Assembly (NCBI GenBank): GCA_014237145.1
Contig: JAAXOC010000007.1
Location: forward strand, 1-60,045
From: ANME-2 cluster archaeon
GTDB lineage: Archaea; Halobacteriota; Methanosarcinia; Methanosarcinales; Methanocomedenaceae
DNA: 60,045 nt
Reading direction: 5' to 3'
Position numbers and translations under genes: made by a program
In this document: piece by piece, positions 6,630 through 44,148 of the stretch
Numbering within the stretch: position 1 is the first letter of the stretch
Layout of the letters: each line of letters begins with the position of its first letter
The notes under the pieces: generated by a model
Database searches by the model: none
What the model was told of the DNA's origin: nothing
What the model saw: only the letters and a program-made list of their open reading frames with translations

Positions 6630-6775
6630 TTATTTCCCCTTTAAACACTTCCGGTTTGAGATAATAAAAGTAGTATAATCTGTTACAGTATTATAACCCT
6701 ATTGTTGTGAGTGCAAGAAATTGCTTCGTGGCGTTAGCAGTTACTTGAACCTGAATTTCGACCTATTTAGTAACT

Positions 6776-6910
6776 ATGTCATTTGAAAGAACAATTGTGA
6801 ATGGTGGGAATAAATATCGACGCCTTGTAGAATCAAGATGGGAGAATGAAAAAAATACGATCTGGAATACACGTAATTGTATCCAATTCGAGTATCCACT
6901 TCAAATCTAA
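6776..6910 (+). pseudogene. transposase N-terminal remnant
   Basis: A 44-codon reading frame contains KYRRLVESRWENEK, which resembles the beginning of IS1634/IS4-type transposases (a Y-x-LVE-x-W-EN-GK motif normally followed by VRQK). After that motif the frame diverges and stops. It overlaps the left arm of an inverted repeat (6891-6906 with 7013-7028). Probably a decayed insertion sequence. The similarity is short, so confidence is modest. Confidence 0.4.
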
Positions 6911-7028
6911 GGGTAAATTGGAAAAATGCAATCATACCAAATTGTCGATTACAACATCAGTAGCGATCATTGTCCAGTGATGTGTGTCGTCACTCTTTAC
7001 TATTACCAACAAATTTGAAGTGGATACT
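6891..7028. repeat. 16-bp perfect inverted repeat, 106 bp apart
   Basis: AGTATCCACTTCAAAT at 6891-6906 is the exact reverse complement of 7013-7028. The arms frame an AT-rich stretch without an obvious gene, in the 409-bp gap between nadK and the CDP-alcohol phosphotransferase. This could be the end of a mobile-element remnant or a large terminator-like hairpin. The rest of the gap (6630-6775) shows no gene. Confidence 0.6.
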
Positions 7029-7038
7029 AATTCGATAA

Positions 7039-7656
7039 TTATTCTTGCTCCATCTCACTCCAGATGCGTAAAAACCGCTGCAGTGCCGTAAAGTGGGACG
7101 TGATTGCAATCACCACTATAACCCAGCCCAGCATTTGCATAGAATATATCTCAAAAGGGTAAACAACATTTGCGGCAGTGACCATAATTATAAGTGCCAA
7201 TCGGTCTGCCCGTCCCATGATGCCGCCGTAGTCCCGGCCTACTCCTACGGCCTGGGCCTGGGTGCCCATGTAGCTGGTTATCAGCACTCCTGTGATGGCG
7301 GCTGCTCCTATCATCCAGTGGGCATATCCGGCAAAGAATATTCCGCAGATGATTAAGGTATCAGCATACCTGTCAATGACATGGTCCAGCAGGTCGCCTC
7401 TGTCTGACTGGATGTTCTTCTGCCGCGCCATCACACCGTCCACGGCGTCTGTGAATGAATTCAGTATAACAAAGACCAGGGCTGCGGCAAGGTATAACCG
7501 GTTGTCTAAGGAATAATAGTAAGATACACCTGACATCAGTGCAAATATGAGCGAGAGCATAGAGACATTGTTTGGGGTCAGTCCCATGCGGGAAAGGGCT
7601 GAGGCTGAAGGTTCCAGGATAAAGCTAATATACGGCCTGTAGGTGTTGAGGGTCAT
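7039..7656 (-). CDS. CDP-alcohol phosphatidyltransferase family membrane enzyme
   Basis: 205 aa with several hydrophobic segments. The catalytic motif D-x2-DG-x2-AR-x8-G-x3-D-x3-D is complete, reading from DAVDGVMAR to DLLDHVID at about residues 70-92. Archaeal members of this size make archaetidylinositol phosphate or related polar lipid headgroups; the head group cannot be chosen from sequence alone. Its ATG overlaps the stop of the upstream kinase gene (ATGA), so translation is probably coupled. Acts in the cytoplasmic membrane. Confidence 0.88.
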   Translation of the reverse strand: MTLNTYRPYISFILEPSASALSRMGLTPNNVSMLSLIFALMSGVSYYYSLDNRLYLAAALVFVILNSFTDAVDGVMARQKNIQSDRGDLLDHVIDRYADTLIICGIFFAGYAHWMIGAAAITGVLITSYMGTQAQAVGVGRDYGGIMGRADRLALIIMVTAANVVYPFEIYSMQMLGWVIVVIAITSHFTALQRFLRIWSEMEQE

Positions 7657-8201
7657 CAGAACACCTCCTCGCTCCAGTCGAACCGGCCGGGCAGATATCT
7701 TTCCACCTGCTCAAAGTTAGCTGCCGACAAGTGCTCAATTATCGAATCCACCAGGATGGCAGCGTCTTCGGGTGAGGATGTGGTGGTCTCTACTTCATAG
7801 ACCATGTCGTGCTTAAGGGTGGTTTCAACCAGTATCACATCCAGTGCTTCAGCTTCCATATTTTCCCTGACCTTTTCCTTGAAATATGCCCTTTCCTCAA
7901 GCCTGTGGGCCAGTACGCCGGGTCTGGTCCGCAACACAATGACCGCATCGCTCCCTTCCAGGTAGTGGGATAAGTGTCCTTCAATGATTATTGTTACGGT
8001 CTCATCTTTTACCAGTTCATCCAGGCGTCCCTGGAGTGCTTCTATATCTGCCACCAGGGAACCGCGCATTTCATCCCTTCCGGTATGCAGTCCTTCATCA
8101 GTTATCATCCGGTTAATATCTATGATCCTGTACTTCTTACCCAAGATGTGGCATATGGTGGTCTTACCAGTGCCGGGAGTACCAGTCAATGCAATTATCA
8201 T
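7656..8201 (-). CDS. AK6/Fap7-like adenylate kinase family P-loop protein
   Basis: 181 aa. The N-terminus MIIALTGTPGTGKTT contains the Walker A loop, followed by IDINRM and a lid-like LEERAYFKEKVREN. This is the pattern of the archaeal/eukaryotic AK6 (Fap7) group, which has adenylate kinase/ATPase activity and acts in small ribosomal subunit maturation in eukaryotes; that role here is inferred. The stop overlaps the next start by ATGA. Upstream, its first 29 bases have been tandemly copied seven times (8202-8404). The authentic start is the last ATG of that chain, because only it opens the full-length frame. Confidence 0.85.
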   Translation of the reverse strand: MIIALTGTPGTGKTTICHILGKKYRIIDINRMITDEGLHTGRDEMRGSLVADIEALQGRLDELVKDETVTIIIEGHLSHYLEGSDAVIVLRTRPGVLAHRLEERAYFKEKVRENMEAEALDVILVETTLKHDMVYEVETTTSSPEDAAILVDSIIEHLSAANFEQVERYLPGRFDWSEEVF

Positions 8202-29498: not shown

Positions 29499-31151
29499 CT
29501 AATAATCATCTCCGATATCAGGAGCTTCAATACCATCATAGCTATCCATTCTATGTTCGGGTTTTACATCCATCAGGCCAGTATATTTGGATGCGAACAC
29601 ATCATCCACCCTCAGTATCATTGCAACAGCATCGGTCGCTGATTTTATTGACTGGATCTTGACCTTTAACGGCTCGATCACACTGGTATCTTTCATATCC
29701 ATGACTTCACCGGTCAGCACGTTCAGACCCACAGTATTATTACCATTCTTATGTTCAGCCCTTAATTTTACCAGGATATCTACAGGGTCAAGGCCGGAAT
29801 TCTCTGCAAGGCTCCTTGGCAGACCTTCCATTGCATCGGCAAATGCAACTACAGCCAGCTGCTCACGTCCGCCTAATGAGGAAGCATATTCCTTAAGCTG
29901 CAGTGCAACCTCTATTTCAGGTGCACCGCCACCGAACATGATCTTGTCTTCGTTTAAGACCACCTTTACTACATTCAGTGCATCATCCAGTGCCCTGTCA
30001 ACCTCATCTGTGATAAAATCAGCACCACTATGGACTAGTATAGTCACAGCTTTGGGATTATCGCATCCCTCGAAATAGATCATCTTGTAATTGCCAATTC
30101 CCCTCTCTTCGACCAGTTCGGCATTACCCAGGTCTTCAGGGGATACGTCCATGGCATTGGACCGGATCGAAGCACTGGTGGCACGAACGATCTTTTTCAG
30201 GTCGTCCTCCTTGACCCGCCTGATGGCAAGGATGTTATTCTTGGCAAGGTAATGCAGGGATATATCGTCAATCCCTTTCTCAGTGACCACTACATTGGCC
30301 CCGCTGGCTATCAGGCTGTCCACCTGTTCTTTTACAGTCTGGTATTCGTCACTGTATGCTTCGTCCAGTTCGTCAGGGGTTGATATCTTGATCTTGGCAT
30401 TCATAGTAGTTTTCTGTACCTCTACACCCACATCCAGAATCGCAATTTTTGCATTTTTTATACTTTTTGGCATATTCTTGTGGGCCCGGGCCTTATCGAT
30501 CACCATACCCTTGAGAAGATGTGTATCTTTTATGGAACCTCCTCTCTGGTGGATGATCTGGATATTGTGCTGGATATCTATCTCTTTGTTATCTGCAATG
30601 GACTGGATAGCATTTATCGTCAGATCTGCCAGGTCGTCCAGTGCCATCTCGCTGCCCTTGCCTGAAAGTGCAGTGAGTGCAACCTTTCTGATTGTTTCTG
30701 TATCTTCAGCTGTAATCTCGACCGAATTGGATTCCAGGATTTCCTGTGCCTTTTCAGCTGCAAGCCTGAAGCCCTTGATGATAACTGTTGGATGAACATC
30801 AAGTTCGATCAGTTTTTCAGCCTGACCCAGCAGTTCTCCTGCAAGGACCACGGCACTGGTAGTACCATCTCCCACTTCTTTTTCCTGGGTCTTTGATATC
30901 TCGACCATCATCATGGCTGCAGGGTGCTGGATATCAATATCCTGCAGGATAGCTGCGCCATCGTTGGTAACTGTAATGTCACCCACAGCATTGACCAGCA
31001 TCTTATCCATGCCTTTGGGTCCCAATGTGGTTTTCACAGCATTTGCAATTGTTCTTGCTGCCATGATATTCGCTGACTGTGCATCCCGGCCTGTCGTCCT
31101 GCTTTTTTCCGGGTCAATAATTATTATAGGCTGTCCGCCTAATCCTGCCAT
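29499..31151 (-). CDS. thermosome subunit (group II chaperonin)
   Basis: 550 aa. Group II chaperonin motifs: [37 protein letters not shown] and [11 protein letters not shown]. The C-terminus ends [10 protein letters not shown] and lacks the GGM repeats of group I chaperonins. It forms the eight-membered double ring that folds proteins. GGAGG lies before the ATG. The short palindrome CACTTGTAAGTG at 31207-31218 lies in its upstream region. Confidence 0.96.
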
Positions 31152-31453
31152 TGATCTTTTTCCTCCGGTAATTATGATCCCTGTAATATTAATAATATAA
31201 TTAGAGCACTTGTAAGTGTTTGTACTTCTATATAATAATTATGGCTTCAACCAGTATCTCCAATTATAGGTAGTTTCTAATGAAAACAATTGCCTTAACC
31301 CTTTTAGCAACTCAAATCAGTCAAATCTACACTCCACGTGAAAGAAGAGTAAGTCATACGTCAGTGGGCTATTTAAGAAGTATTATTCCCAGGGATAGAT
31401 ACATATACTTTAACACACAATCAAATTAATATTAGATTGTGGAGGTTTGAGTT
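31152..31453. promoter_or_regulatory. divergent promoter region, thermosome and GerW genes
   Basis: On the minus strand are AT-rich TATA candidates (around 31190-31200 and 31232-31245) and the 12-bp near-palindrome at 31207-31218, possible heat-shock control. On the plus strand, ATACTTTAACACACAA (about 31410-31425) and GGAGGT at 31441-31446 serve the GerW-like gene. No ORF is seen. Confidence 0.45.
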
Positions 31454-31837
31454 TTGATAGTGGACGATTTATTAAAGACCATTACAGAAGAGATTGCCGA
31501 CATGGTTTCCACCAAGACCGTGATTGGAGAACATATTATCGTGGAAGGTAAGACCATCATACCAGTTACCAAGGTCAGCTTTGGTTTTGGCAGCGGTGGA
31601 GGTGAAGGCAAAAAGAAAGCAGGCGAGGAAGGTACCGGCGGTGGCGGGGGTGGTGGTGCTTCTATTCAACCCGTGGCTTTCCTTGTGGTGACGGCAGAAG
31701 ATATCCAGGTATTTAGCATAAAAGGAAAAGGTGTTTTGGCCCAGCTTACCGAGATAATGCCTGAAATGATGGAAAAATACAAATCGATGATGGAAGAGAA
31801 AAATAAGGCGAAAACTGGTGAAACCGAGACCAACTGA
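31454..31837 (+). CDS. GerW/YtfJ-family protein
   Basis: 127 aa from a TTG start with GGAGGT 7 bp upstream. It has an N-terminal helical part, TVIGEHIIVEGKTIIPVTKVSFGFGSG, then a Gly-rich stretch and GGASIQPVAFLVV. This is the YtfJ/GerW family, named from Bacillus spores but widespread in archaea with unknown function. The gene for its usual partner, a DUF2953 protein, follows 17 bp downstream. Confidence 0.85.
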   Translation: MIVDDLLKTITEEIADMVSTKTVIGEHIIVEGKTIIPVTKVSFGFGSGGGEGKKKAGEEGTGGGGGGGASIQPVAFLVVTAEDIQVFSIKGKGVLAQLTEIMPEMMEKYKSMMEEKNKAKTGETETN

Positions 31838-31854
31838 AACCAATCATAATTGAA

Positions 31855-32448
31855 ATGATTTGGCTCCTGATGGGAATAGTAATAGTAATGATCATAGTCG
31901 TGTTGCTGTTCCCTGTTACTATCCGTGCCCGATCTTCCGGGTCAGAAGGAATAATAGGCGGTAGTATTAGCATAAGCTGGTTGATACTTGCTATTCAATA
32001 TGAATTAAAGGATAAACAAACAGATATACTCATCCTGGGCCGCACGTTGATCCATCAGCAGTATAAAGAAAAAACACCAGAAACCAAGGACATAAAAAAA
32101 TCCGTCAAATCCCGATCCATTCCGCCAGTAAAGAATTTCACCCCCCTGATAGGACCGTTAATGCGGCTTATCAGGGATTTGCGATCCATTTTCAAATTCA
32201 GGCACTTTGAACTGGATACTGTCTACGGCCTGGAAGATCCCGCCTATACAGGCATGTTGACAGGATATATGCACGCCCTGCCTGGTCAGTACAATATTTC
32301 CTTTACACCCGATTTCACACAGCCTGTGCTGGACTGGGACCTGGACCTTGCCACGGCTTTTACTCCAATTATGGTCGTACCGCCAATAACAAGGTTTGCT
32401 ACCAACCCCCTGGTACTGCGGTCAGGGTGGAGGATTGTCCGTAGTTGA
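31855..32448 (+). CDS. DUF2953 membrane-anchored protein
   Basis: 197 aa. One N-terminal membrane segment (LLMGIVIVMIIVVLLFPV) is followed by a soluble domain with the DUF2953-like ELDTVYGLEDPAYTGMLTGY motif. DUF2953 and GerW genes are commonly adjacent in bacteria and archaea, as seen here, suggesting a membrane complex. Activity unknown. Convergent with the ubiquitin-like gene; its end abuts 32449. Confidence 0.78.
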   Translation: MIWLLMGIVIVMIIVVLLFPVTIRARSSGSEGIIGGSISISWLILAIQYELKDKQTDILILGRTLIHQQYKEKTPETKDIKKSVKSRSIPPVKNFTPLIGPLMRLIRDLRSIFKFRHFELDTVYGLEDPAYTGMLTGYMHALPGQYNISFTPDFTQPVLDWDLDLATAFTPIMVVPPITRFATNPLVLRSGWRIVRS

Positions 32449-32655
32449 TCATCCTCCTGAAACGATCTTCAGGATATCAATTCGACCGGAATCCACAATA
32501 TCATCTATAGGTACCGGCCCGCCGTCGACCATCAACACAACAGTCTCAGGATTAATCCCCAGTTCGGCAAGGATATCACTATAGACACTTCCTTCTTCTA
32601 CTTCAATTGTTTTTTCAAGGACGCCACCGGCAAGTATTTTTATCCTCACCTGCAA
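32449..32655 (-). CDS. ubiquitin-like small modifier / sulfur-carrier protein (MoaD/ThiS fold)
   Basis: 68 aa ending SGG, so the C-terminal diglycine needed for adenylation and thiocarboxylate or isopeptide formation is exposed. The sequence (IKILAGGVLEKTIEVEEGSVYSDILAELGI) fits the beta-grasp fold. It starts at TTG (32655) with GAGGAG upstream, inside the end of the preceding gene. It could serve as SAMP-type protein tag, in tRNA thiolation, or in cofactor sulfur transfer; no E1-like gene is present in the window. Confidence 0.8.
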   Translation of the reverse strand: MQVRIKILAGGVLEKTIEVEEGSVYSDILAELGINPETVVLMVDGGPVPIDDIVDSGRIDILKIVSGG

Positions 32656-32661
32656 CAGGAA

Positions 32662-32802
32662 CTACTCCTCGTCGGGTAATTTTGCGATTTCCCCTTCTGA
32701 CCCTGTCAAAGACTCAAGATTGTTCTTAATCAATTTTTTTTCAAGAATCTGCTGTTTTTTTTCACCTTTACGTTCCAAGTCTCTTTTTTTAAATTTAGAC
32801 AT
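32662..32802 (-). CDS. 46-aa basic/acidic small protein, unknown
   Basis: A short ORF: Lys/Arg/Glu-rich N-terminal half (MSKFKKRDLERKGEKKQQ) and acidic end (LPDEE). GAGGTGA lies 5 bp before its ATG, and it ends 6 bp before the ubiquitin-like gene's start, so translation of the two is probably linked. No known domain. The strong ribosome-binding site and operon position support it being real. Confidence 0.6.
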   Translation of the reverse strand: MSKFKKRDLERKGEKKQQILEKKLIKNNLESLTGSEGEIAKLPDEE

Positions 32803-32845
32803 ACAGGTCACCTCATGTACCCATTTAGTTCAATATTTAATAACC

Positions 32846-33850
32846 TTACTGTATGGCATCATCCCTTATCTCATCGAACACCAGGTCAGACCAGTCCCGT
32901 TCACCGAGCACAATCTCAAACTCCACTGGCGTAAGCACAGGCGCATTAAACCGTCCCCCTTCATCTATGGCAATGCGCGGACATGCCGTATTTACAAAAG
33001 CATCCACTTTGAACTGCAATAAAGCATCAAGAGTGATATTGTCAAGTGAAATAATGATATGTTCCTTATTATGTTTTTTAGCAAGTCCAGCTAGCCGCCG
33101 TGCCAGTCCCATTCTCTCCTGCCCTATCTTAGTGGATACGATTATGCAAAAAGAAGTGGCATCAAGACACCTGGCGATCACCCCGCCCCTTTGCCTCAAT
33201 ATCCTTTCAGGGTCCACCCATTCAACAGTGTTCAACATGGGGTCTGCCGCCAGTACTTTTCGCCTTGTTGCCACAGCCACACCCAATGGATGGAACTTCC
33301 CGCTTCCGACATAAAGGTAGCTGTCGCATTTGACCTCAGCAGCCGAAAAGTTACACCCCAGCAACTGTCCCGGATATTTGATCCGTGAATCACCAGTACC
33401 TACCACACACGACATACCACTTGACCCCAGGATATTTATGGCCTTGTCAAGTTGATGGACATGCTGGACTGTGGTCACAAGACCCACTGTGCCTGCATCC
33501 AGTTCAACGGCTGCCATTTCAACGACAGGCCCGATATCCACCCGGGCAGGTGTTTCCATGAAGATTACATTATCCAGCCCATCAACAAGTTCACAATGCC
33601 CGAAATGGAACATGATATCCACAGAACCTTTGAGTACCATATCGATATCACAAGCCCCGAAACATGGGTTGCCGGATACAATCATAAAAGCCCCGGTCTT
33701 ATCTTCCAGTTCCCTTGCTATGGAAAATGCCTGCCTCTTAAAGCCTTCCGGGAATTGGAGACCCACAGTCCTTGCTTCTGATCGATTGATAATGTCAACT
33801 ACCCTGTCCAGGTCAAAGTCAAAGATATCAAGAAAAGATGAATTGTTCAT
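32846..33850 (-). CDS. dph2: diphthamide biosynthesis enzyme Dph2
   Basis: 334 aa. Three conserved cysteine segments are visible: GNPCFGACDID, MSCVVG and NTACPRIAIDEG. These carry the 4Fe-4S cluster of the noncanonical radical-SAM enzyme that adds the aminocarboxypropyl group to His of EF-2. Archaeal Dph2 is a homodimer. Close to hpt (16 bp), on the same strand. Its start ATG is at 33850. Confidence 0.93.
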   Translation of the reverse strand: MNNSSFLDIFDFDLDRVVDIINRSEARTVGLQFPEGFKRQAFSIARELEDKTGAFMIVSGNPCFGACDIDMVLKGSVDIMFHFGHCELVDGLDNVIFMETPARVDIGPVVEMAAVELDAGTVGLVTTVQHVHQLDKAINILGSSGMSCVVGTGDSRIKYPGQLLGCNFSAAEVKCDSYLYVGSGKFHPLGVAVATRRKVLAADPMLNTVEWVDPERILRQRGGVIARCLDATSFCIIVSTKIGQERMGLARRLAGLAKKHNKEHIIISLDNITLDALLQFKVDAFVNTACPRIAIDEGGRFNAPVLTPVEFEIVLGERDWSDLVFDEIRDDAIQ

Positions 33851-33866
33851 GGCTGCGATAAATATA

Positions 33867-34421
33867 TTATCCTAATATCTCCACGCCCTTCGGACCAACA
33901 TCGACCCTTACCAGGGTCTTCACAGGCAAACCCGCCTCTCTGAGCCGCTTTGCGCCATCTCCCCGCTCGATAACTACGACGGTATCCACAATAATTCCTC
34001 CCGCGATCCCCACGGCCTGCCAGACGGCTTCCAGCGTCCCGCCTGTGCTGACCACATCATCGATTATGATCAAACGCTCACCTGCGGATATCCCGTTCAG
34101 GTACAGTTCGCCTTTCGAATAGCCAGTAGCCTGGTGTATCTTTACCTCATTTGGAAGCTCATACGGACGTTTCCGGACTATGGACATGGGTTTCCCTGTC
34201 CTGAGGGCCAGGGCTGTTCCGATATGTATGCCCATAGCCTCGATGGTAAGTATTTTATCAAAGCCTGGTTCGGCAACAGCCATTATTCTGTCAGTCACTT
34301 CATTTAGCAGGGCAGGTTCCAGATACGGAACTCCGTCAGTAATGGGATGTATAAAATAATTATACTCGCCGCGGTTCACAATAGGAGCGGCTTTCAGGGA
34401 TTTTTCCAGTAGGTCTGGCAT
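33867..34421 (-). CDS. hpt: hypoxanthine/guanine phosphoribosyltransferase
   Basis: 184 aa, archaeal type. The PRPP motif is LIIIDDVVSTGGTLEA; the N-terminal NYFIHPITDGVPYLEP and the EAMGIHIGTALALRTGKP segments match the archaeal Hpt group. It salvages hypoxanthine and/or guanine to nucleotides. Specificity cannot be settled by reading. First gene of an hpt-dph2 pair. Confidence 0.92.
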   Translation of the reverse strand: MPDLLEKSLKAAPIVNRGEYNYFIHPITDGVPYLEPALLNEVTDRIMAVAEPGFDKILTIEAMGIHIGTALALRTGKPMSIVRKRPYELPNEVKIHQATGYSKGELYLNGISAGERLIIIDDVVSTGGTLEAVWQAVGIAGGIIVDTVVVIERGDGAKRLREAGLPVKTLVRVDVGPKGVEILG

Positions 34422-34481
34422 GTTTAATGGATATTACTGTATCCCACTTGTAACTATCGCTTATTCACTGAAAGACAGGAC

Positions 34482-34609
34482 AGGTGCAACAAGTACAATA
34501 TTTAAATGTGGACTAGCTAATGGTAATATCACAATATTACAGGTCATTACTGTTCAAAATGTAATCCGCATTTGAGATTATTACTTTATCTTTGTTTTCT
34601 ATTTCATCT
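34482..34609 (-). pseudogene. displaced 3' end of a PIN-domain gene
   Basis: 128 bp closely matching 39345-39472, the last 23 or so codons of the PIN gene at 39401-39910 plus about 55 bp of its 3' flank. It encodes a frame ending ISNADYILNSNDL then stop. Similarity ends inside the gene, so this is a 5'-truncated copy. It sits just upstream of hpt. Confidence 0.85.
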
Positions 34610-35230
34610 TCCTCAAATTAAAATTAAACCACTATCATCAAACCGTATCAATTTTTAAGTCTGTTCTACATCGCTTTAATTCCAGTCAATTTTTAAGTAT
34701 CGGCTCTCCCCGAAAAGTGAGAGTAATTGTATGATCTGTGTCATATGTATGATAAAACACAATCTATAAAAATCTTCAAATAAAAAATCTATTGGATATT
34801 GAAAATTTTATATGTGTTTCTTTTTCGATGGAAAACGATAGGATTAGCGATTACAATAAGTTATTTACAGAAAGAGAAAGCAAGATTCAGGTGAGAAACT
34901 GACGAAGATGGGGTGTAGGGCATTTTCCTTTTTTTAGAGGGTATGTTTGAAGATGTTTCAAGCAACAAATATCATAAATTGCATGATTGTAATACTAATT
35001 CCTAAATTATATGCTGGTCATCAGAAATCGTACATAGACAAAAGATATTATTTGTTACTAAACCATTATGCTTCGAAAGAGTTAAGTAATGTATTTAGTC
35101 TTTTTATATTGTGGTGAATTAAGGATTTTGTCATTTTGGAGAAATTTGACAACATTTGAAAAAATAGTGTATTAATCACATCTTGTCGATGGGTTGTCAA
35201 TTTACTGAATCCTATTTGGCTGTGATAATC
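34610..35230. other. AT-rich intergenic region
   Basis: No gene, tRNA or clear repeat is seen in this roughly 620-bp stretch. It must hold the promoter of the nicotianamine-synthase-like gene. Low G+C compared with neighbours suggests it belongs to the acquired region. Confidence 0.5.
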
Positions 35231-36136
35231 ATGAGTTCAATACAGATATACAAACCAACTACTTCTGTTTACGGTACAGACATATATGGAAAGCACATTT
35301 CAGATGTGAGCTATTATAGTACAGGGGATTACACAGAAAAAATAATTGAAGAGGTCTTTGAGATATATTCATCGATCAAGGATCTCAAGGATGAAGAGAT
35401 ACTTCAGGATCCTTCAAATCATCTTATACCTATTTTTCAAAGACTGGATCATTTGATAGCACTAAATGTATATGATAAATCTGGAGAAGCTATCTTCTTT
35501 GATTATGTATTTAATTTAGCATTTGATGCTATTACCAGATTCAGAAGCTTATATACTGCAAAATTGGAAATTGAACATGCACATTCCATACTGGAAAGCA
35601 GAGATCCCTGGGAAATGCTTACAAATTTCACTTATATCTCCAATTATCTCAAATTGTCCCTAACTGAATTTCAGGGAGCCAGGCTCAAACCTGGTGACAG
35701 TGTTGTATTTCTCGGGAGTGGACCGCTACCTTTAACTCTTATAGTTCTCTGCCATTGGTATGGACTTAAAGGAATCGGAATTGAACAGGACCCTGATAGA
35801 GCAGAACTCTCAAGAAAAGTGCTGGAAAAACTTGGGCTTTCTGATCAGATTGAAATAATTAACGGTGATCAATTAACATTGCCTTTGAAAACCAGGTCCG
35901 AGCTAATCATGATAGCTGCTCAAGCTGAACCTAAAAAAGAGATATTTAATCATCTGGCAAAGGTGCTCCCTGTAGGGACCAAATTATCCTACCGCATCTA
36001 TGAAAAGGGATTAAGAAGGTTGTTAGACACATTTTATTTATTTGAATTACCTGAACAGTTTGAAGAATATCTTCGGGTCCAGCCAGAACCACCTGTCAAT
36101 AATACTGTTGTGTTTGTAACAAAAGATGTTTGTTAA
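35231..36136 (+). CDS. nicotianamine synthase-like protein, copy 1
   Basis: 301 aa from the ATG at 35231; an in-frame ATG at 35183 adds 16 residues. A helical N-terminal half is followed by a Rossmann SAM domain with VVFLGSGPLPLTLI and GIGIEQDPDRAELSRKVLEKLG. This matches the archaeal NAS family, which condenses aminocarboxypropyl groups from SAM into a metal-chelating (thermo)nicotianamine. Its second half is nearly identical in DNA to the copy at 36684-37511, while the first half is diverged. A CfbA remnant sits between the two. Confidence 0.82.
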   Translation: MSSIQIYKPTTSVYGTDIYGKHISDVSYYSTGDYTEKIIEEVFEIYSSIKDLKDEEILQDPSNHLIPIFQRLDHLIALNVYDKSGEAIFFDYVFNLAFDAITRFRSLYTAKLEIEHAHSILESRDPWEMLTNFTYISNYLKLSLTEFQGARLKPGDSVVFLGSGPLPLTLIVLCHWYGLKGIGIEQDPDRAELSRKVLEKLGLSDQIEIINGDQLTLPLKTRSELIMIAAQAEPKKEIFNHLAKVLPVGTKLSYRIYEKGLRRLLDTFYLFELPEQFEEYLRVQPEPPVNNTVVFVTKDVC

Positions 36137-36214
36137 TTTTCTGTGAACCTGATCATATGGCTAATCCCACCATGTTAGAGGTGAGATTACCTTTTATCCT
36201 CTTTTTGTTTCTTT

Positions 36215-36425
36215 TTATTCCAGGGCTTCAATAGCCCTCCTGTATGCAAGGTCTGCTATCACGGGATCGGAGGCCAGTGGTTCGGCATAGATCAAGGTCA
36301 CGTCGTTGCCATCAACTTTAACGTTCCTCTTGCGTTCTTCCCGGCTTATACCCAGAATCTTGGGGATATCTTCAGTAGTATGTACACCGTGAGTCAGGAA
36401 TAAAGGTACGTGGAAAGGCTCAATA
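36215..36425 (-). pseudogene. cfbA: CfbA (sirohydrochlorin nickel/cobalt chelatase), C-terminal half
   Basis: The minus strand encodes about 70 residues to a stop, including VPLFLTHGVHTTEDIPKILG and AEPLASDPVIADLAYRRA. This is the C-terminal half of the small chelatase CfbA/CbiX-S with the second metal-binding His region. The first half is absent: upstream of 36425 the frame is AT-rich and no start is seen. Full CfbA is about 130 residues. CfbA puts nickel into sirohydrochlorin for coenzyme F430. Confidence 0.8.
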
Positions 36426-36683
36426 CATCGTGAACAATTTTATTTGTCATAAATTTCATCAATTAAATATGAATTAATTCTACTATTTTAGTTATTTGTA
36501 GTAATACCAGTTATGATTGATTTATCATAAAGTTATCAATAATAACGCAGTATTAGCAGATAATTAGATAGTAGTTGGCCTAATTGGATAGTTATTTTAT
36601 TTCAAATTACAAGTGAACTCACAAAGGCTTTACAGGATAATAACAACTTATAAAAAGTATAATTATATACTACATATTAGGTT
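36426..36683. promoter_or_regulatory. AT-rich promoter region of NAS copy 2
   Basis: Very AT-rich. A TATA-like TTATAAAAAGTATAAT lies at about 36649-36664, 20-35 bp before the GTG start at 36684, fitting a leaderless mRNA. No gene is seen. Confidence 0.5.
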
Positions 36684-37511
36684 GTGAGTAATATTACTGA
36701 ACAGTCAATAAAGATTATAATTGCAGAACTATTAAATATAAATTCAACTACAAAAGATCTTAAGGATCAAGATATCCTTCACAGTACTTCGAATCATCTT
36801 GGAACCTATTTTCACAGATTGGATTATCTGGCTGCAATGGATATTGATGATAAATTGGCAGAAGAAACAATCTGTAATCCTGAATATAATTCAGTACTTG
36901 AAGCTATTGTCAGGTTCAGGAATCTATATAGTTTGAGACTTGAAATTGAAAATGCAAAAGCCATACTGGCCAGTGAAGATCCATGGGAAGTTCTGAAGAA
37001 TTTTACTCATTTCCCCAATTATCTTCAACTCGCCCAGACCGAATATCATGGATCTGAACTTAAACCAGGCGATACTGTTATTTTTCTTGGGAGCGGACCG
37101 CTACCTTTAACACTTATAGCTCTTTGCCATTGGCATGGACTTAAAGGAATCGGGATTGAACGGGACCCTGATAGAGCAGAACTGTCAAGAAAGGTGCTGG
37201 AAAAACTTGGTCTTTCTGATCAGATTGAAATAATTAACGGTGATCAATTAACATTGCCTTTGAAAACCAGGTCCGAGCTAATCATGATAGCTGCTCAAGC
37301 TGAACCTAAAAAAGAGATATTTAATCATCTGGCAAAAGTGCTCCCTGTAGGGACCAAACTATCCTACCGCATCTATGAAAAAGGATTAAGAAGATTGTTA
37401 GATACATTTTCTGTTTTTGAATTACCGGAACAGTTTGAAGAATATCTTCGGGTCCGGCCTGAACCGCCTGTTAATAATACTGTTGTATTTGTAACAAAAA
37501 AGGTTTGTTAA
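36684..37511 (+). CDS. nicotianamine synthase-like protein, copy 2
   Basis: 275 aa from a GTG start at 36684. It has the same family features as copy 1 (VIFLGSGPLPLTLIALCHW; GIGIERDPDRAELSRK). Residues from GSGPLPLT to the end are almost the same in both proteins, with long runs of identical DNA, but N-terminal halves share only part of their residues. Copy 2 lacks the N-terminal extension of copy 1. Gene conversion of the 3' half is the simplest explanation. Confidence 0.82.
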   Translation: MSNITEQSIKIIIAELLNINSTTKDLKDQDILHSTSNHLGTYFHRLDYLAAMDIDDKLAEETICNPEYNSVLEAIVRFRNLYSLRLEIENAKAILASEDPWEVLKNFTHFPNYLQLAQTEYHGSELKPGDTVIFLGSGPLPLTLIALCHWHGLKGIGIERDPDRAELSRKVLEKLGLSDQIEIINGDQLTLPLKTRSELIMIAAQAEPKKEIFNHLAKVLPVGTKLSYRIYEKGLRRLLDTFSVFELPEQFEEYLRVRPEPPVNNTVVFVTKKVC

Positions 37512-37839
37512 TTTCCTATACATAAGAATACTTCATTTGTCATCTGTTAAGGAGTTTGACATAGTCGGCATGTATTATTTTCCAAAAGACCAATGATTTC
37601 AAACGATTCTCCAATTTAATTTAAATCGAACACGTATGACACGGATTTATCTATTATCCGTGCAATCCGTGTTCCATTACAATATTACTCTTAACCGATG
37701 ACACATGGAGAATACTTGTTCTGGATGAGTTCACTGGAAATCTTGAACCCAACGTGATAGATATGAAGAATGGGCACAGAGGCTACCTCACTGAAATAAA
37801 AGCTATTTTCCGGGGAATTCCTGAATTCACTAATGCTTA
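37512..37839. repeat. non-coding stretch with a dispersed repeat
   Basis: Contains an inverted repeat (37628-37675: AACACG...CCGTGTT) of the AATCCGTGTT family also seen near 21030-21090. An open stretch around 37700-37795 reads LDEFTGNLEPN...GHRGYLTEIKA, probably a decayed gene I cannot name. The 37815-37839 portion (GGAATTCCTGAATTCACTAA) is repeated at 40340, next to another PEBP copy. Confidence 0.5.
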
Positions 37840-38396
37840 TCAGCGCCCGTATTTCCCAATCATCTCTCCCTGTGTCAGGATGTGCCCTGACATGGCAGCC
37901 TCAAGCTGGGATTTGGTGGCGCCGCTCTTCAGGTCGAGTGTGATATCCAGGGCATATGCCTTGAAGAAATATTTGTGTGTCTTGCCAGGCGGCGTCCAGG
38001 GTCCGTCATAGCCGATCCTGCTAAAGTCGTTCTTGCCCTGCAGGCTGTCGTCGTCCAGGGTCTTTTTCTTGGGCACCGCACCGGGCAGTCCTGTGATGTT
38101 GGCAGGTATGTTGTAGATCACCCAGTGGGCCCAGGTTTTACCGGGTGCGTCGGGGTCGTCCACGACAACGGCGATGGAGTGCCTGCGGGGACGGTGTTCC
38201 AAGACAGGTCGGGTGATACATCATTCCCGTCACATGTGTATTCGGACGACAGCATACCCACGTTCTCAAATACGTCCGAAGAAATCGATATTGCATCCAT
38301 ATTTGTATCCTCCTCTATCAGGGTCTCTTCATCAGGCTCACTGGCAATACATCCTGAAATAAGTACCAATAGCACAAGAATCAAAAAGATCCGCAT
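37840..38396 (-). pseudogene. PEBP/YbhB-like lipoprotein, frameshifted copy 1
   Basis: The start at 38396 gives a lipoprotein signal (LILVLLVLISGC) and CDGNDVSPDLSWNTVPAGT, then the frame breaks at about 38180. Compared with the intact copy at 44962-45519, four bases are missing between the GCGATGGA and GTGCCTGCGG segments. After the break another frame continues with VVVDDPDAPGKTWAHWVIYNIP and ends MIGKYGR. Unless the sequence is in error, the gene is inactive. Confidence 0.85.
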
Positions 38397-38431
38397 GATG
38401 AAATCCTCCTTTACCAGAGTTTACTTTTCAA

Positions 38432-38515
38432 GTATTAATGCTTTTTTCCCCTCAACCGCTCAAACACGCCTTCCACCTGCGCAACCGCAGTCTCGATATC
38501 CCCCTCGGCATTCTA
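38432..38515 (-). pseudogene. purB 3'-end remnant, short
   Basis: About 80 bp beginning TCAAGTATTAATGC resemble 45552-45630, the end of the purB tail copy, with the same spacing to the PEBP gene. So a PEBP-purB junction was copied here too. Similarity ends about 38515. Confidence 0.65.
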
Positions 38516-38671
38516 TAAGTCGTACCCGCCAGAGCATGACAATAGATCAACCCTTACCGCCTTGATTAGCTTTTGCACTAAAAGGAAACCATTTCAATTC
38601 ATGTCCGGAAAAATAAAAAAAGCACTTAATCCAAAGAAAATCAGATAAACAATCGTATTCTATTAAATTAC

Positions 38672-38971
38672 ATGACATACGGTGTGGTTTCCTTGCGAAT
38701 TGCACCGGGCATGCTCAAAGAGATTAACAGACTGGCACACGAGGAGCATGTGAAATGCTCTACCTTTCTGCGTGAATTGCTGGACAAAGGTTTGAAAGAA
38801 ACAAAGATCGAACATGCGGCCGAACAGTACAAGCAAAGTAAAATCTCAATTGGTAGAATGGTTGAGATAACCCGCCTATCGCGGCATGAGCTTTTTAAAG
38901 AGTTGAAAGAACGCGGGATCAGCGTGCATTATTCAAAAAACAGACTGCTAAGAGAGATCAGTGATCTATGA
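38672..38971 (+). CDS. antitoxin, UPF0175/ribbon-helix-helix-like
   Basis: 99 aa. The N-terminus (VSLRIAPGMLKEINRLAHEEHVKCSTFLRELLDKGL) reads as a ribbon-helix-helix; the C-terminal half (YKQSKISIGRMVEITRLSRHELFKELKERGISVHY) is the UPF0175-type motif. It overlaps the PIN gene by 4 nt, as in antitoxin/toxin pairs. Confidence 0.78.
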   Translation: MTYGVVSLRIAPGMLKEINRLAHEEHVKCSTFLRELLDKGLKETKIEHAAEQYKQSKISIGRMVEITRLSRHELFKELKERGISVHYSKNRLLREISDL

Positions 38972-39153
38972 CAGTAGCTGACACCGGTATTCTGATCTGG
39001 CTTGCCCGGTACAATAAACTCAAGTTACTAAAAGACCTGTACGGAAAAATAGATATTTCAGCCAAAGTGTTCGAAGAAGCTGTAACGGCAGGAAAATTAA
39101 ATGGATACCCTGATGCAGAAATATTTTCTAAATGTATAAAATTATGCGCTTAA
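38968..39153 (+). pseudogene. truncated PIN-domain toxin
   Basis: Only 61 aa: MTVADTGILIWLARYNKL carries the first PIN Asp, and FEEAV a later Glu, but the remaining acidic residues and the last half of the domain are missing. A TAA ends it. Full PIN toxins of this type are about 130-170 aa (see 39401-39910). Its antitoxin upstream is intact, so it may be a solitary antitoxin. Confidence 0.65.
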
Positions 39154-39400
39154 AAGTTCGGGAACTTTAGCTTTATCAGACTCCGCCCACCAGTACCATC
39201 CACTGCCGGGTCCAGAACTCTCCCTATACTAATCCCACCGCTTCAGGCACCATAATATCACCGTTCCCGAGCACAAGCTTGATAACCACAAACCAGGGTG
39301 GGATGTGGGTATGGTCGGTGATTGCAGTGCCAGTGGGTGTAGATAGGTGCAACAAGTAGTATATTTAAATGTGGACTAAGCTAATGGTAAAAGCACAATA
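39154..39400. other. gap with an undetermined coding remnant
   Basis: On the minus strand 39220-39345 reads TPTGTAITDHTHIPPWFVVI then KLVLGNGDIMVPEAVGLV to a stop, an uninterrupted frame with coding flavour but no start and no recognised family. Followed by a second frame fragment. Right end (39345-39400) is the part duplicated at 34482. No complete gene. Confidence 0.4.
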
Positions 39401-39910
39401 TTACAGGTCATTACTGTTCAAAATGTAATCCGCATTTGAGATTATTACTTTATCTTTGTCTTCTATTTCATCAATCAATGCTTCCACTTCTTTGGATGTG
39501 AGGATGTCAGTTACTATCAAAGACTTAAGAAGCATGCTCAGATCAATGAATTTAATATCATAATGGTCACAAACTTTCTTGGCAGCCGTATCATTTGTAA
39601 CCAAAACGCTGTCCCGGTGTTTGCAAATGGATATGCATTCCAATTCACCAGGTCCCAACTTTCGCCGTTCATCACGCAGTTTTTCTAAAAAACCTAGTTC
39701 TTCTTGTCTAAGTAGTGTGACTTCGAATATCCGGGAGTCTGTTATATGATCAACGAACTCATATCCACAATCCTTTGCTTTGAAAAGTTCATTATTGACA
39801 GAGGTTGGAATTGAGAAGTCTGCACCAGGGAATAACTTTTCCAAAAGGTCAAGCCGTTTTATCTTGCCAAATGTGCTGAGAACATCAGTATCAAAGACTA
39901 ACGATGTCAT
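39401..39910 (-). CDS. PIN-domain protein (VapC-like toxin)
   Basis: 169 aa. LVFDTDVLSTFGKI has the first PIN Asp, KLGPGELECISICKHRDSVLVTNDTAAKKVC holds the later acidic residues. Probably an RNase. Its start overlaps the antitoxin gene by 4 nt. A copy of its 3' end is at 34482-34609. Confidence 0.82.
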   Translation of the reverse strand: MTSLVFDTDVLSTFGKIKRLDLLEKLFPGADFSIPTSVNNELFKAKDCGYEFVDHITDSRIFEVTLLRQEELGFLEKLRDERRKLGPGELECISICKHRDSVLVTNDTAAKKVCDHYDIKFIDLSMLLKSLIVTDILTSKEVEALIDEIEDKDKVIISNADYILNSNDL

Positions 39911-40242
39911 TTTCTCAACTTATTAATCAGTTCAACGCCTTCGTCAAGCTCTTTTTTACTTCTTGAACCCACCTCTCTGCGAATGCCCCTACTTACAAGA
40001 ATATCTTTAAATTCTATGGTTGATACACCTACCATTTCAGCAGCTTTACCCATGGATATTTCACCTTCTTTGTAAAGTTCTATCACTGCTGAGGTTTTCA
40101 GTTCAGGTCTGACATTTAGTAAAGTCCTGAATGCGTCTTTTATTGCTTCATTGAGATTTGCATAATGTCCATCCCTGACCAATGCCTTCATTTCCATTTC
40201 AATTGTTGCAGGCAATGCAATCATTTCTGGCATTTTTATCAC
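39907..40242 (-). CDS. antitoxin, UPF0175-like
   Basis: 111 aa. LYKEGEISMGKAAEMVGVSTIEFKDILVSRGI is the UPF0175 motif, a winged HTH-like stretch; the N-terminal part is charged. It overlaps its PIN partner by 4 nt. An internal ATG at residue 4 is an alternative start. Arranged tail-to-tail with the pair at 38672-39153. Confidence 0.8.
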   Translation of the reverse strand: MIKMPEMIALPATIEMEMKALVRDGHYANLNEAIKDAFRTLLNVRPELKTSAVIELYKEGEISMGKAAEMVGVSTIEFKDILVSRGIRREVGSRSKKELDEGVELINKLRK

Positions 40243-40365
40243 TGTTCCATATTTGGTTTTCTGTATTATATATCATTGCATGTATGGGTTTTAGCATTGT
40301 AATTACAATGCATGGGTGAAATAACAGTTCGTTTTACTGGGAATTCCTGAATTCACTAATGCTTA

Positions 40366-40907
40366 TCAGCGCCCGTATTTCCCTATCATCTCTCCCTGTG
40401 CCAGGATGTGCCCTGACATGGCAGCCTCGAGCTGGGATTTGGTAGCCCCGCTCTTTAAGCTGATGTAGTATCCAGGGCATATACCTTGAAGAAATACCTG
40501 TGTGCCTTGCCCGGTGGCGGGCAGGGTCCGTTATAGCCGATCCTGCCAAAGTCATTATTACCTTGCAGGCTGCCGTCGTCCAGGGTCTTGTTCTTAGGTA
40601 CCGCAGCGGGCAGTCCAGTGCTGTCGGGAGGTATGTTGTAGATCACCCAGTGGACCCAGGTTTTGCCGGGGGCGTCGGGGTCGTCCACTATCAGGGCGAT
40701 GGACTGTGTGCCTGCGGGTACGGCCTCCCATGTGAGTGCAGGGGAGCGGTCCTCCCCATCACAGGTGTATTCGACTGGCAGGCTGGTGTCGGCTTTAAAG
40801 GCATCTGAAGATATTGAGATTTGCTCCATTATGGTCTCCTCTTCTGTTTGGTTGGATATACATCCTGAAAATAATACCAGTAGAGCGATAATCAAGAAGA
40901 CCCTCAA
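40366..40907 (-). pseudogene. PEBP/YbhB-like lipoprotein, frameshifted copy 2
   Basis: Start at 40907: signal and lipobox LLVLFSGC, then CDGEDRSPALTWEAVPAGT and DDPDAPGKTWVHWVIYNIP. The frame is lost at about 40463, where one G is missing from the AAGCTGAGTGTAG segment of the intact gene; the last 30 residues continue in another frame to IGKYGR. The ORF still gives 150 aa, so partial function is possible. The break differs from that of copy 1, so the two decayed independently. Confidence 0.8.
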
Positions 40908-40959
40908 CAGACAACTCCTCCAAGTAAGTATTATGGGCTCCTTCTACCGGTTCTATACC

Positions 40960-41721
40960 TCATGCCACATATTCCATAAATCCTTTCGATGTGTACGAAA
41001 CAGGTTTCCCATCTATGCATCCATTGACATCATATGTGCCGGTCAGTTCCCATATTACCAGATATTTGTCAACTCCGACCTGTACTGGAATCGGTGTGAC
41101 ATCTTCGGTCATAAAGCGAATACTCATGCTGTTTTCACCATCATTGGCATTGAGGACCGTACACATTGGAAACGAATTGTTCCGGAGTTCAGGTATTTGA
41201 GGCAGTTTTGCTATTCTGGAGTGCTGGATCTGTATCCCCTTATCCTCAAATCTCGCAATTATCTTTTTATTCTTCCATATATTCAGGACAGCCCCCCTTG
41301 ATTTGGTATGCTCATTGTCGGTAACATTCCCAAAGCAAAATGCATATTTACCCACATCATTTCCATCCAAGTGGTTCTTGCTCTCGGTCGCCTGTCCCCA
41401 GTCCCATCCGATATCGTCCTGCCACAGCCAGTAACCCCAGTTGTGATCGTGGTAACCTTTTGTGTTTTTCAGTGTATATGTCTTTTCAAGTGCCGTTCCT
41501 TTCCTGGTGGTAAGTGTACCTGTTACTTTCATCATTGGTGACGCAACCAGCCAGTTGATCACCCTGTCCGGTCCATAGGGCGGTTCATAGGATGTATTAA
41601 AAAGCGGGGCTGGCTCAGTAAATGGTTTAAACATGGCATCGAAAACCGTCTGGCTATCAGCAGATTCGACATGTATACTAAACCGTATATGTTTTTTGTA
41701 ACTTTCTGCCACAGAGAACAC
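40960..41721 (-). pseudogene. lipocalin-like AttH/CrtC-family protein, N-terminally truncated
   Basis: 253 aa. GYHDHNWGYWLWQDDIGWDWGQ is the AttH/hydroxyneurosporene-synthase-like motif. The usual first domain strands are incomplete, and the first residues (MFSVAE) are encoded by a dispersed CTCTGTGGC-type repeat, so the true start has been lost or replaced. The remaining frame is intact for over 750 bp, so truncation is recent or the shortened protein is used. Confidence 0.55.
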
Positions 41722-41844
41722 CGAGATGCTTTTTTGCCCCTAAACTCCTCTCTCTGTGCCCTCTGTGCCCTCTGTGGCAGTCATACAAAGTTCCAAATTA
41801 TACTTGCGGAGAAGTATAAATTAAATATATCTAACTTTAATATT
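41722..41844. repeat. dispersed CACAGAG/CTCTGTG repeat
   Basis: CCACAGAG near 41706 and CTCTGTGCCCTCTGTGCCCTCTGTGG at 41752-41778 form an imperfect inverted repeat. Similar CGCAGAG/CTCTGCG sequence recurs at 44803-44864. Probably non-coding. A poly-AT promoter-like tail leads to the beta-helix gene end. Confidence 0.6.
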
Positions 41845-44148
41845 TTATGTTTCTAAAATATCATCAGATGTCACCATTATCCAGTATCCTTTACCAGGTT
41901 TAAAAATGGTCAAGTCGTTTCCAAAAGGCACAGATGGATCATACTTTTTCCACTGATCTGTAGTGTTGCTGGCATTATATGCCCAAACGATACTGTAATT
42001 GCCACTGATTGAAGATAGAGCCTCAACTACTGGCTGACTATCAAGAGAATTGTAGCCGATAAGGTTCCAGCTGATCTTTAAATCAATATCAGTTGACTCT
42101 GGTATAGTACCACTTATGGGCAATATGTCATCAGATGTCATCATTATCCAGTATCCTTTACCAGGTTCCATATTTATCAGGTCGTTTCCAAAGGGTACAC
42201 CCGGATCGTACTTCTTCCAGTGGTCAGAAGTGTCGCTTGCGTTATATTCCCAGATTATGCTGTAATTGCCATTGATTGGAGACAGCAATGAAGTTATTCT
42301 AGTGTCTTCTGGCATCAAGGGTAGAGAAATCAGGTTCCAGCCAGTGTATAGATTAAGAGTTGTACCTGATGCTGGTAGTGTTGTTGCTGTATAGTTTGCC
42401 ATTTCGTCATAGACGGTATTGCCTGCTGCATCACTTGCTGAGATATTCACAGTGTGGGTTCCGTTAATAGCTATTATAGTTCCCATCCATATGTCATCTC
42501 CATCATTGTCACTTAGAGGCAGATCGTCAGCTGTTACAGCTGTTACTTCGACATTATCCGTAGCATTTACGGTAACTAAAATATCATCACCGATATTCGG
42601 ATCAGTCGTATTCAGTATAACAGAATTGATCACTGGATATGTGATGTCAGGGTCAGGGTCAATTCCATTCCACGGTTCCATTAGTGGATATTGATCCTGG
42701 GCACCAGCTGTGCCGCTGATGTTATATGGTGTATCACCAATACCATCGTTGTCTACATCTTCTCCATTATAATCCTCCCAGTAATTACCGCCTGAAGGAT
42801 AACCATCATCCCATGAATTGGATTCACCATTATCATAAGCATTGTATTTATGATTATTTTTGAAATTGTTATGATAAATTAAGTTATTTAAAGAAGAATC
42901 AAGACGAATTCCATAACCATTTGTCGAAATATTGTTATTCACAAGTATTGATTTTTTAGCCCTGATTAGATAAATTCCATCATCAGCACTGTTTGTAACA
43001 CTATTATTTTCTATTGTCACCATACCACCTGTACCGGCTATCTTACAATAGATTCCATCGCTGGAAATGCCAACATTATTATCTATCTTGTTATTCTTTA
43101 AAGTGGCACTCTTTTCTTCAGCAAGACTGATTAAAACTCCAGAGCCAGTATTGTCAGTAATGATATTGTCTTCCACTACAGCATTACCAGTAGCGGCACC
43201 TCCACCATAGATAATCCCGCCGCCATTTCCATCTATTGTACTGTTTCGAATTGTGAAGGCTTTTCCAGATTTGAAGTAAATACCTGATCTGGTATTATCT
43301 GTGATTGTAACATTCTCAACATTCAAATCTGAAGAATCTGCATAAAGCCCATAGCTACCTGAACTCCCAACACTGGAATCAGCAACAATAGACTCTGTTC
43401 TTCCACCGCGCAGATAAATGCCATACCGCCCGCTGCTTGTGACAGGATTATTTTCTATTGTCATTAGTCCGCCTGAATGTGCTATATAAACAGAAATCCC
43501 GTCACTGTAGCTGCCAGCATTATTATTGATCTTGTTATTCGCTACAGTGGCACTTTTTCTTTCAGCAAGACTGATTGAAACTCCGGAGCCAATATTGTTA
43601 GTAATGATATTGTCTTCTACTACAGCATCACCAGTAGCACTTCCACCATAGATAATCCCGCCGCCGTTTCCATCTATTGTACTGTTTCGAATTGTGAAGG
43701 CTTTTCCGGAATAGAAGTAAATACCTGATTTGGTATTGTCTATGATTGTGACATTCCCAACATTCAAATCTGAATAAATTGCATAAAGTCCACTGCCACT
43801 GGCATTTGTGATTGTAAATCCATTAACAATCACATCCGATGAACTTAATTTAATACAATTACCGCTTCTGTTACCATCGATTATTACATTAGCTTCATCT
43901 TGTCCTAATAATGTTAAAGATTTGGAGATTATTATATTCTCATGGTATCTTCCATTGTACACATAAATAGTATCTCCCGAAGAAGCAGCATCTACAGCAG
44001 CCTGTATAGTATTATAATCTGCAGGACCGTCATCATCTACTGTTATTACAGCCTCGTTGACTGGAAATATTGTTGCACTCGCACTTCCCGCAAGTAAAAA
44101 AATGCAAATAAATGCAATTGATAGCAGTATTGTATTTCTTTTATTCAT
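41845..44148 (-). CDS. secreted right-handed beta-helix protein (NosD/CASH type) with repeated C-terminal modules
   Basis: 767 aa. A signal peptide (LLSIAFICIFLLAGSASA) precedes TVDDDGPADYNTIQAAVDAASSGD, the start of a parallel beta-helix with Asn-rich rungs at about residues 60-430. An Ig-like segment (TVNATDNVEVTAVTADD) follows, then two copies of a GWNLISLP...YNASDTSDHWKKYDPGVPFGND...GKGYW module. It is most likely exported and cell-surface located. Two internal blocks (DNA about 43100-43340 and 43540-43770) are nearly identical. No sortase or membrane anchor is obvious. Confidence 0.82.
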   Translation of the reverse strand: MNKRNTILLSIAFICIFLLAGSASATIFPVNEAVITVDDDGPADYNTIQAAVDAASSGDTIYVYNGRYHENIIISKSLTLLGQDEANVIIDGNRSGNCIKLSSSDVIVNGFTITNASGSGLYAIYSDLNVGNVTIIDNTKSGIYFYSGKAFTIRNSTIDGNGGGIIYGGSATGDAVVEDNIITNNIGSGVSISLAERKSATVANNKINNNAGSYSDGISVYIAHSGGLMTIENNPVTSSGRYGIYLRGGRTESIVADSSVGSSGSYGLYADSSDLNVENVTITDNTRSGIYFKSGKAFTIRNSTIDGNGGGIIYGGGAATGNAVVEDNIITDNTGSGVLISLAEEKSATLKNNKIDNNVGISSDGIYCKIAGTGGMVTIENNSVTNSADDGIYLIRAKKSILVNNNISTNGYGIRLDSSLNNLIYHNNFKNNHKYNAYDNGESNSWDDGYPSGGNYWEDYNGEDVDNDGIGDTPYNISGTAGAQDQYPLMEPWNGIDPDPDITYPVINSVILNTTDPNIGDDILVTVNATDNVEVTAVTADDLPLSDNDGDDIWMGTIIAINGTHTVNISASDAAGNTVYDEMANYTATTLPASGTTLNLYTGWNLISLPLMPEDTRITSLLSPINGNYSIIWEYNASDTSDHWKKYDPGVPFGNDLINMEPGKGYWIMMTSDDILPISGTIPESTDIDLKISWNLIGYNSLDSQPVVEALSSISGNYSIVWAYNASNTTDQWKKYDPSVPFGNDLTIFKPGKGYWIMVTSDDILET

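Follow-up and report, generated by a model that had tools for sequence, protein, structure and literature searches.

We have studied a pair of adjacent nicotianamine-synthase (NAS)-like genes, a and b, in a window of 60,045 nucleotides from an ANME-2 cluster archaeon. The 3′ part of gene b has very probably been altered by a one-way gene conversion, from an A-type gene like its neighbor a. The two genes would be anciently diverged NAS paralogues lying side by side, A-type (a) and B-type (b), and homologous recombination would have overwritten roughly the last 320 nt of b with A-type sequence, the flanks being kept. The product would be a hybrid, in which a B-type helical domain carrying the catalytic Glu and Tyr is joined to the later part of a Rossmann domain, including Gln205, derived from A.

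The gene pair and its setting

The window is the whole of contig C7 of a genome (G000) of 2.97 Mb in 118 contigs, and the gene pair is read from one metagenome-derived assembly of its species. We take the genus of the source genome to be ANME-2b; the group labels ANME-2a, 2b and 2c are likewise our assumption, backed by record titles and the name 'Candidatus Methanogasteraceae'. As an earlier note on this DNA had proposed for positions 35231-37511, two NAS-like genes are present, both on the forward strand. Gene a (35231-36136; 301 aa, ATG start) is A-type and gives 118.4 bits with the PF03059 profile; gene b (36684-37511; 275 aa, GTG start) gives 116 bits, the cut-off being 27.1 bits.

The best characterized relative is MtNAS, the thermonicotianamine synthase of Methanothermobacter (3fpe, 3fpj, 3o31), which gene a matches with E = 1.7e-35 (3fpe). 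The predicted structure of b (mean pLDDT 84.7) superimposes on MtNAS 3fpj with Z = 25.4 and an rmsd of 2.6 over 261 aligned residues, and has the same helical N-terminal domain and Rossmann C-terminal domain. The fold is therefore common to nearly the whole protein and the Glu and Tyr are conserved; the identity, however, is about 31%, and here there are two adjacent paralogues. The next family in the structural comparison is CntL, the staphylopine aminobutanoyl transferase (NF033601, 7c9m), which belongs to the same fold family (Z = 16.8). Nevertheless a and b score just 35.5 and 36.7 bits against the NF033601 equivalog profile (cut-off 350), and no opine-dehydrogenase partner of the CntL type was found among the ORFs scanned beside the pair.

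Upstream of the pair, on the opposite strand, are genes of the diphthamide synthesis family (PF01866) and a phosphoribosyltransferase gene (PF00156). By alignment, a and b each have their own conserved upstream region, that of b (36440-36683, forward strand) being conserved in four species. A scan of 30000-42000 against Rfam at the gathering threshold gave no match, whether to a riboswitch or to any other known RNA. At 37840-38396 and 40455-40907 the reverse strand carries a phosphatidylethanolamine-binding-protein-like gene in several copies or fragments, adjoining UPF0175 genes, and such copies are present in the sister locus L020 too.

Five other genomes of the genus were compared. Both genes are found in G001, G002 and G005, in tandem in the latter two and on two separate contigs in G001. 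G004 has a single B-type gene, and neither a nor b was found in G003, which is 80% complete. The source genome contains a third NAS gene, c, on contig C13; no third NAS match was found in the sister genomes compared.

Conversion of the 3′ part of gene b

The earlier note had regarded even divergence along the full length as fatal to gene conversion. Alignment of a with b is clearly uneven. In the N part, before the GSGPLPLT motif, 124 of 387 nt differ (.320, or 32%), in keeping with the strongly diverged 5′ halves that had been noticed; in b the corresponding B-type region encoding the helical domain is 36684-37088. Segment M, comprising GSGPLPLT and the next 26 codons (37089-37190; 34 codons), has 8 differences in 102 nt (.078). 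The divergence is lowest in segment T (37191-37394; 68 codons), with 6 differences in 204 nt (.029, or 2.9%), and rises again in segment E, the last 38 codons (37395-37508), with 12 in 114 nt (.105). The matching part of a, of the donor type, is 35816-36133 on the same strand, at an alignment offset of 1375 nt. The two genes had been described as almost identical from GSGPLPLT to the stop. The jump in identity is real, but amounts to 93.8% overall (26 differences in 420 nt), with 97% attained only in 37191-37394 and a patchy match thereafter.

The sister species behave differently in segment T. The divergence between a and b in segments N, M, T and E is.320,.118,.279 and.193 in G002 and.323,.127,.279 and.211 in G005; in G001 it is.318,.157 and.255 for N, M and T. 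The contrast between N and T is highly significant in the source genome (Fisher test, p = 2e-19), and the same test is non-significant in all the sisters (G002 p = 0.35, G005 p = 0.30, G001 p = 0.13). Since the sister pairs are diverged by 25-28% in T, the homogenization belongs to the source lineage and is not a matter of constraint. Within this segment b differs from a by.029 and from its orthologue in G002 by.260, and is thus nearer to its twin than to its orthologue.

The switch can be located using 181 diagnostic sites that are fixed differently between a and b of G002 and G005. Gene a is A-type nearly throughout. Gene b is B-type at every such site in 36684-37088 and remains so until about 37162-37196; it is A-type from 37196, with A- and B-type markers interleaved in segment E near the stop. 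The breakpoint is bounded by 37124 and 37196 and most likely falls after 37162, so that the change particular to the source genome begins 25-36 codons beyond GSGPLPLT. Among 258 polymorphic sites, the longest run shared by a and b comprises 46 (permutation p = 1e-4), compared with runs of 3 and 2 in the pairs of G002 and G005.

A full alignment and a NAS family tree had been suggested, and trees of the separate parts of b conflict. They were calculated from 45 proteins, comprising three from the source genome and 42 chosen from 131 NAS matches, with distant paralogues, fragments and bacterial sequences omitted. In the N-part tree b falls inside the B clade beside its G002 orthologue (100/88), and placing it with A is rejected by the AU test (p = 8e-5). 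In the 3′-part tree b is inside the A clade of the genus (100/99), and placing it with B is rejected (p = 0.014). After the stop codon about 20 nt (37512-37531, forward strand) resemble the DNA after b in G002 and G005, and not that following a. The marker sites, the conflicting trees and the retention by b of its own downstream DNA point to b as the recipient and an A-type gene as the donor, without exchange of the flanks. The process is non-reciprocal, a remaining A-type. Together with the permutation test, these results bear out the gene conversion that had been proposed.

An older layer, the donor and alternative explanations

The step at GSGPLPLT itself has a different history. It exists, as had been observed, but is common to three sister species and is older than the change in the source lineage. 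Over segment M the distance between A and B genes within the genus is 0.118, whereas the remaining cross-group pairs, with b excluded, lie between 0.19 and 0.32 (23 sequences in 8 groups); these more distant pairs include A-A and B-B comparisons between genera. A DNA tree of M, based on just 102 columns and leaving out 3 of the 45 sequences (two of L041, and L049), groups the A genes of the genus with its B genes (93/88). AU tests, for which the groups were picked after the distances were known, reject the monophyly of B (p = 0.0075) and the grouping of the B genes of the genus with those of ANME-2c (p = 0.029). We read the similarity in M as the trace of an older conversion in the ancestor of the genus, before the species split, by which the first SAM-binding motif would have been homogenized. 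Such an event would explain the step seen at GSGPLPLT in the earlier note.

A single conversion extending from GSGPLPLT to the stop is ruled out, M being alike in all four species that have both genes. It had been suggested that conversion was limited to the SAM-binding and catalytic half, and this view requires revision at several points. Homogenization of the first SAM motif, GSGPLPLT with some 25 codons after it, came earlier and was genus-wide; the recent breakpoint lies inside the Rossmann domain; and the presumed catalytic residues of b, E87 and Y113, are in the N-terminal half that was not converted.

The A and B NAS genes of ANME-2c are arranged tail to tail (L023-L025, L032, L041). 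The distance between them falls to 0.09 at codon columns 297-321, suggesting a third, independent conversion, but this is unsupported by AU tests (p = 0.12-0.19) and is therefore not claimed here. The tree of columns 293-325 omitted two sequences of L041, L049 and b.

Which A-type gene was the donor? In segment T a and b encode the identical protein, with dS =.141. This is of the same order as dS for gene a between species (.067-.092), so that the conversion is not very recent. Substitutions unique to b number 9 in the 325 nt from position 37184 onward, compared with 1 in the preceding 482 nt (p = 0.0017; G004 b is included in both counts), and no sites are common to a and b of the source genome alone. 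Moreover, an AU test of the 3′ part rejects a and b as sisters (p = 0.034), although the patchy end contributes to this. Taken together, these observations indicate that the donor may not have been gene a of the same genome. In addition, b and its G002 orthologue are unusually similar in the 5′ part, differing by 0.7-4% per 150 nt over 36551-37150; neighboring genes differ by about 4-11%. Two histories would fit: donation by an A gene from a related lineage, or an older tract in a gene b whose 5′ part was renewed with sequence from a G002-like lineage.

The same data bear on an alternative in which the neighboring gene played no part, the A-type tract having come from the A gene of an unsampled lineage of the genus through interspecies recombination at the wrong locus. 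The excess of unique substitutions in the tract and its end, the rejection of a and b as sisters, and the closeness of the 5′ part to G002 as a hint of exchange between lineages would all fit. Yet a and b share the same protein in the clean tract, the numbers are small, and an older local conversion could equally account for the patchy end and the unique changes. We consider this origin unlikely, though it deserves to be taken seriously. A switch between paralogues or strains in the assembly of the metagenome seems very improbable. The pair does lie on one contig of a 118-contig assembly with 1.92% contamination, and the near relatives are all MAGs. But the tract is no copy of a, from which it differs at 18 positions in T and E; near the stop, A- and B-type markers succeed one another on a scale of tens of bases; and b has its own DNA downstream. 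A single assembly switch gives none of these features. Stronger purifying selection or convergence acting on the 3′ half without recombination might be imagined because the SAM site is located in the C-terminal domain. However, dS falls as well, from.86 to.14, and the three sisters are diverged in the same half (T.25-.28, dS.86-.97); synonymous sites and the sister comparison rule out this explanation, to which we attach virtually no weight.

Accepting conversion of the 3′ part of b, was it favored by selection? Two specificities for the starter substrate, residing in the N-terminal half, might be needed on one optimized SAM half. Both layers of conversion are indeed within the 3′ half, ANME-2c provides a weaker third signal at codon columns 297-321, and in the mtrA genes only the shared domain was homogenized (PMC4632066). 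The ANME-2c signal is non-significant, however, and b may have become dispensable because the genome encodes a further NAS, of B-type, at another locus. Furthermore the N-terminal halves, at 68% identity, are too dissimilar to recombine easily, so that a neutral account suffices. On balance we doubt that the conversion was selected.

Partial gene conversion is already known in methanogens, and the NAS pair adds one more case in methanogen-type archaea. In the mtrA-1/mtrA-2 pair, adjacent paralogues have similarly been homogenized over one part of the protein only; PMC4632066 describes conversion recurring across lineages, with 92-99.7% identity in the domain. The NAS pair differs in showing two tracts, a partial one specific to its lineage and an older one, and in that the breakpoint falls within a domain. 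For other methanogenesis genes, too, concerted evolution is on record (PMC6053082).

The hybrid protein and its nickel neighborhood

The b protein has 33 amino acid differences from both sister b proteins, at 30 of which it matches a. Residues E81 and Y107 of MtNAS are thought to be catalytic, according to PMC10248798, and they correspond to E113 and Y139 of a (alignment to 3fpe) and to E87 and Y113 of b. The latter two are invariant in 24 sequences, and precede the tract, in the B-type 5′ part.

Within the tract, codon 205 of b (37296-37298, forward strand) specifies Gln (AAQAEPK), whereas the B genes of the sisters have Ala (AAAAEPK); MtNAS has Leu here (AALAEPK). In the 45-sequence alignment this position is Gln in ANME A-type proteins (Leu in L029) and Ala in ANME B-type proteins (Gly in G004), with the exception of b. 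Gln also occurs in relatives from Methanosarcina, and is hence not unique to A. On the alignment, then, the tract imports A205Q, the residue that separates the two ANME types. We take this position to adjoin the 206-VGMD-209 motif of AtNAS1. That motif is near the reaction chamber and is required, as stated in PMC10248798.

In segment T, a and b differ at six codons, in every case synonymously, where 23% of the possible changes would be synonymous (P = 1.4e-4). The hybrid thus appears to have been conserved, under purifying selection, since the conversion, and on that basis is probably a working aminobutanoyl transferase. The earlier idea that the pair yields two chelators or two modes of regulation found no direct support.

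Between a and b, on the reverse strand at 36215-36439, is a stub of cfbA comprising the C-terminal codons of a sirohydrochlorin nickelochelatase, the 5′ half being deleted. It matches PF01903 with 35.9 bits, covering positions 57-104 of the 106 in the profile within an open frame of 74 codons. Intact cfbA-like genes are found in three sister species (at about L020:8982-9392 and L019:1155-1562, and in L030). In G002 and G005 the gene lies between a and b on the opposite strand, and in G001 it directly precedes b at the end of a contig. That of L020 scores 152.5 bits against NF033198 (F430_CfbA; cut-off 120). It is an extra copy, another gene of the CbiX family being present elsewhere in these genomes, whereas the source contig retains the stub and no complete gene. 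In the ANME-1 locus L027 the order is NAS A, a CbiX-family gene, NAS B.

The a/b pair, its cfbA broken, has no adjacent ECF transporter. Gene c (L115:2973-13318, contig C13), by contrast, is beside two consecutive operons of ECF-type Ni/Co transporters, encoding DUF4198-like and NikL-like proteins, CbiM, CbiQ and CbiO. CbiM or CbiQ occurs in 24 of 79 NAS loci from named genomes. CbiM lies within 3 kb of a NAS gene in 7 of 10 genomes, each with 1-4 CbiM matches, the three lacking this arrangement being G002, G005 and G061. DUF4198 and NikL-like proteins belong, we presume, to NikKLMQO nickel systems. The NikL match is 54.7 bits, below the cut-off of 100, and NCBIfam labels the S component as a cobalt transporter, so that the operons may be read as serving either nickel or cobalt. 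NAS genes had been called rare in archaea; in this order 49 of the 149 genomes searched have a match.

Other arrangements of NAS genes were seen. In Desulfobacterota and Methanosarcina a NAS gene comes right after a very distant NAS paralogue (L053, L054, L060, L061, L062, L067, L071 and others). In 11 desulfobacterial loci there is an alanine-racemase/D-serine-dehydratase-like gene near NAS, recalling the CntK-CntL pair. ANME-1 locus L040 has an ORF of 537 aa (6307-7917) with a NAS match in its C-terminal part only (343-511), directly before another NAS gene.

From these gene neighborhoods it is possible, if slightly on the doubtful side, that the product of both enzymes is a nicotianamine- or thermonicotianamine-like chelator for the supply of nickel to F430 and other nickel enzymes, cobalt being an alternative. 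More speculative, and rather unlikely as a whole, is the broader proposal that ANME produce a nickel metallophore using two kinds of NAS (A with Gln, B with Ala) tied to CfbA and Ni/Co ECF uptake, and that the hybrid b changes the product of the B enzyme. In the open-access literature we found no papers on NAS with nickel transport in archaea and, judging by title and abstract, no relevant ones on nicotianamine in ANME or on archaeal nickelophores.

ANME need much nickel for the F430 of MCR, and little is known of its acquisition. The recurrent placement of NAS genes beside CfbA or Ni/Co ECF transporters ties a nicotianamine-like chelator to nickel supply in a way that is direct and can be tested. 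Alongside the orthologues of b that stayed unconverted in three sister species, the hybrid constitutes a ready natural domain swap for finding which half of the enzyme sets the product.
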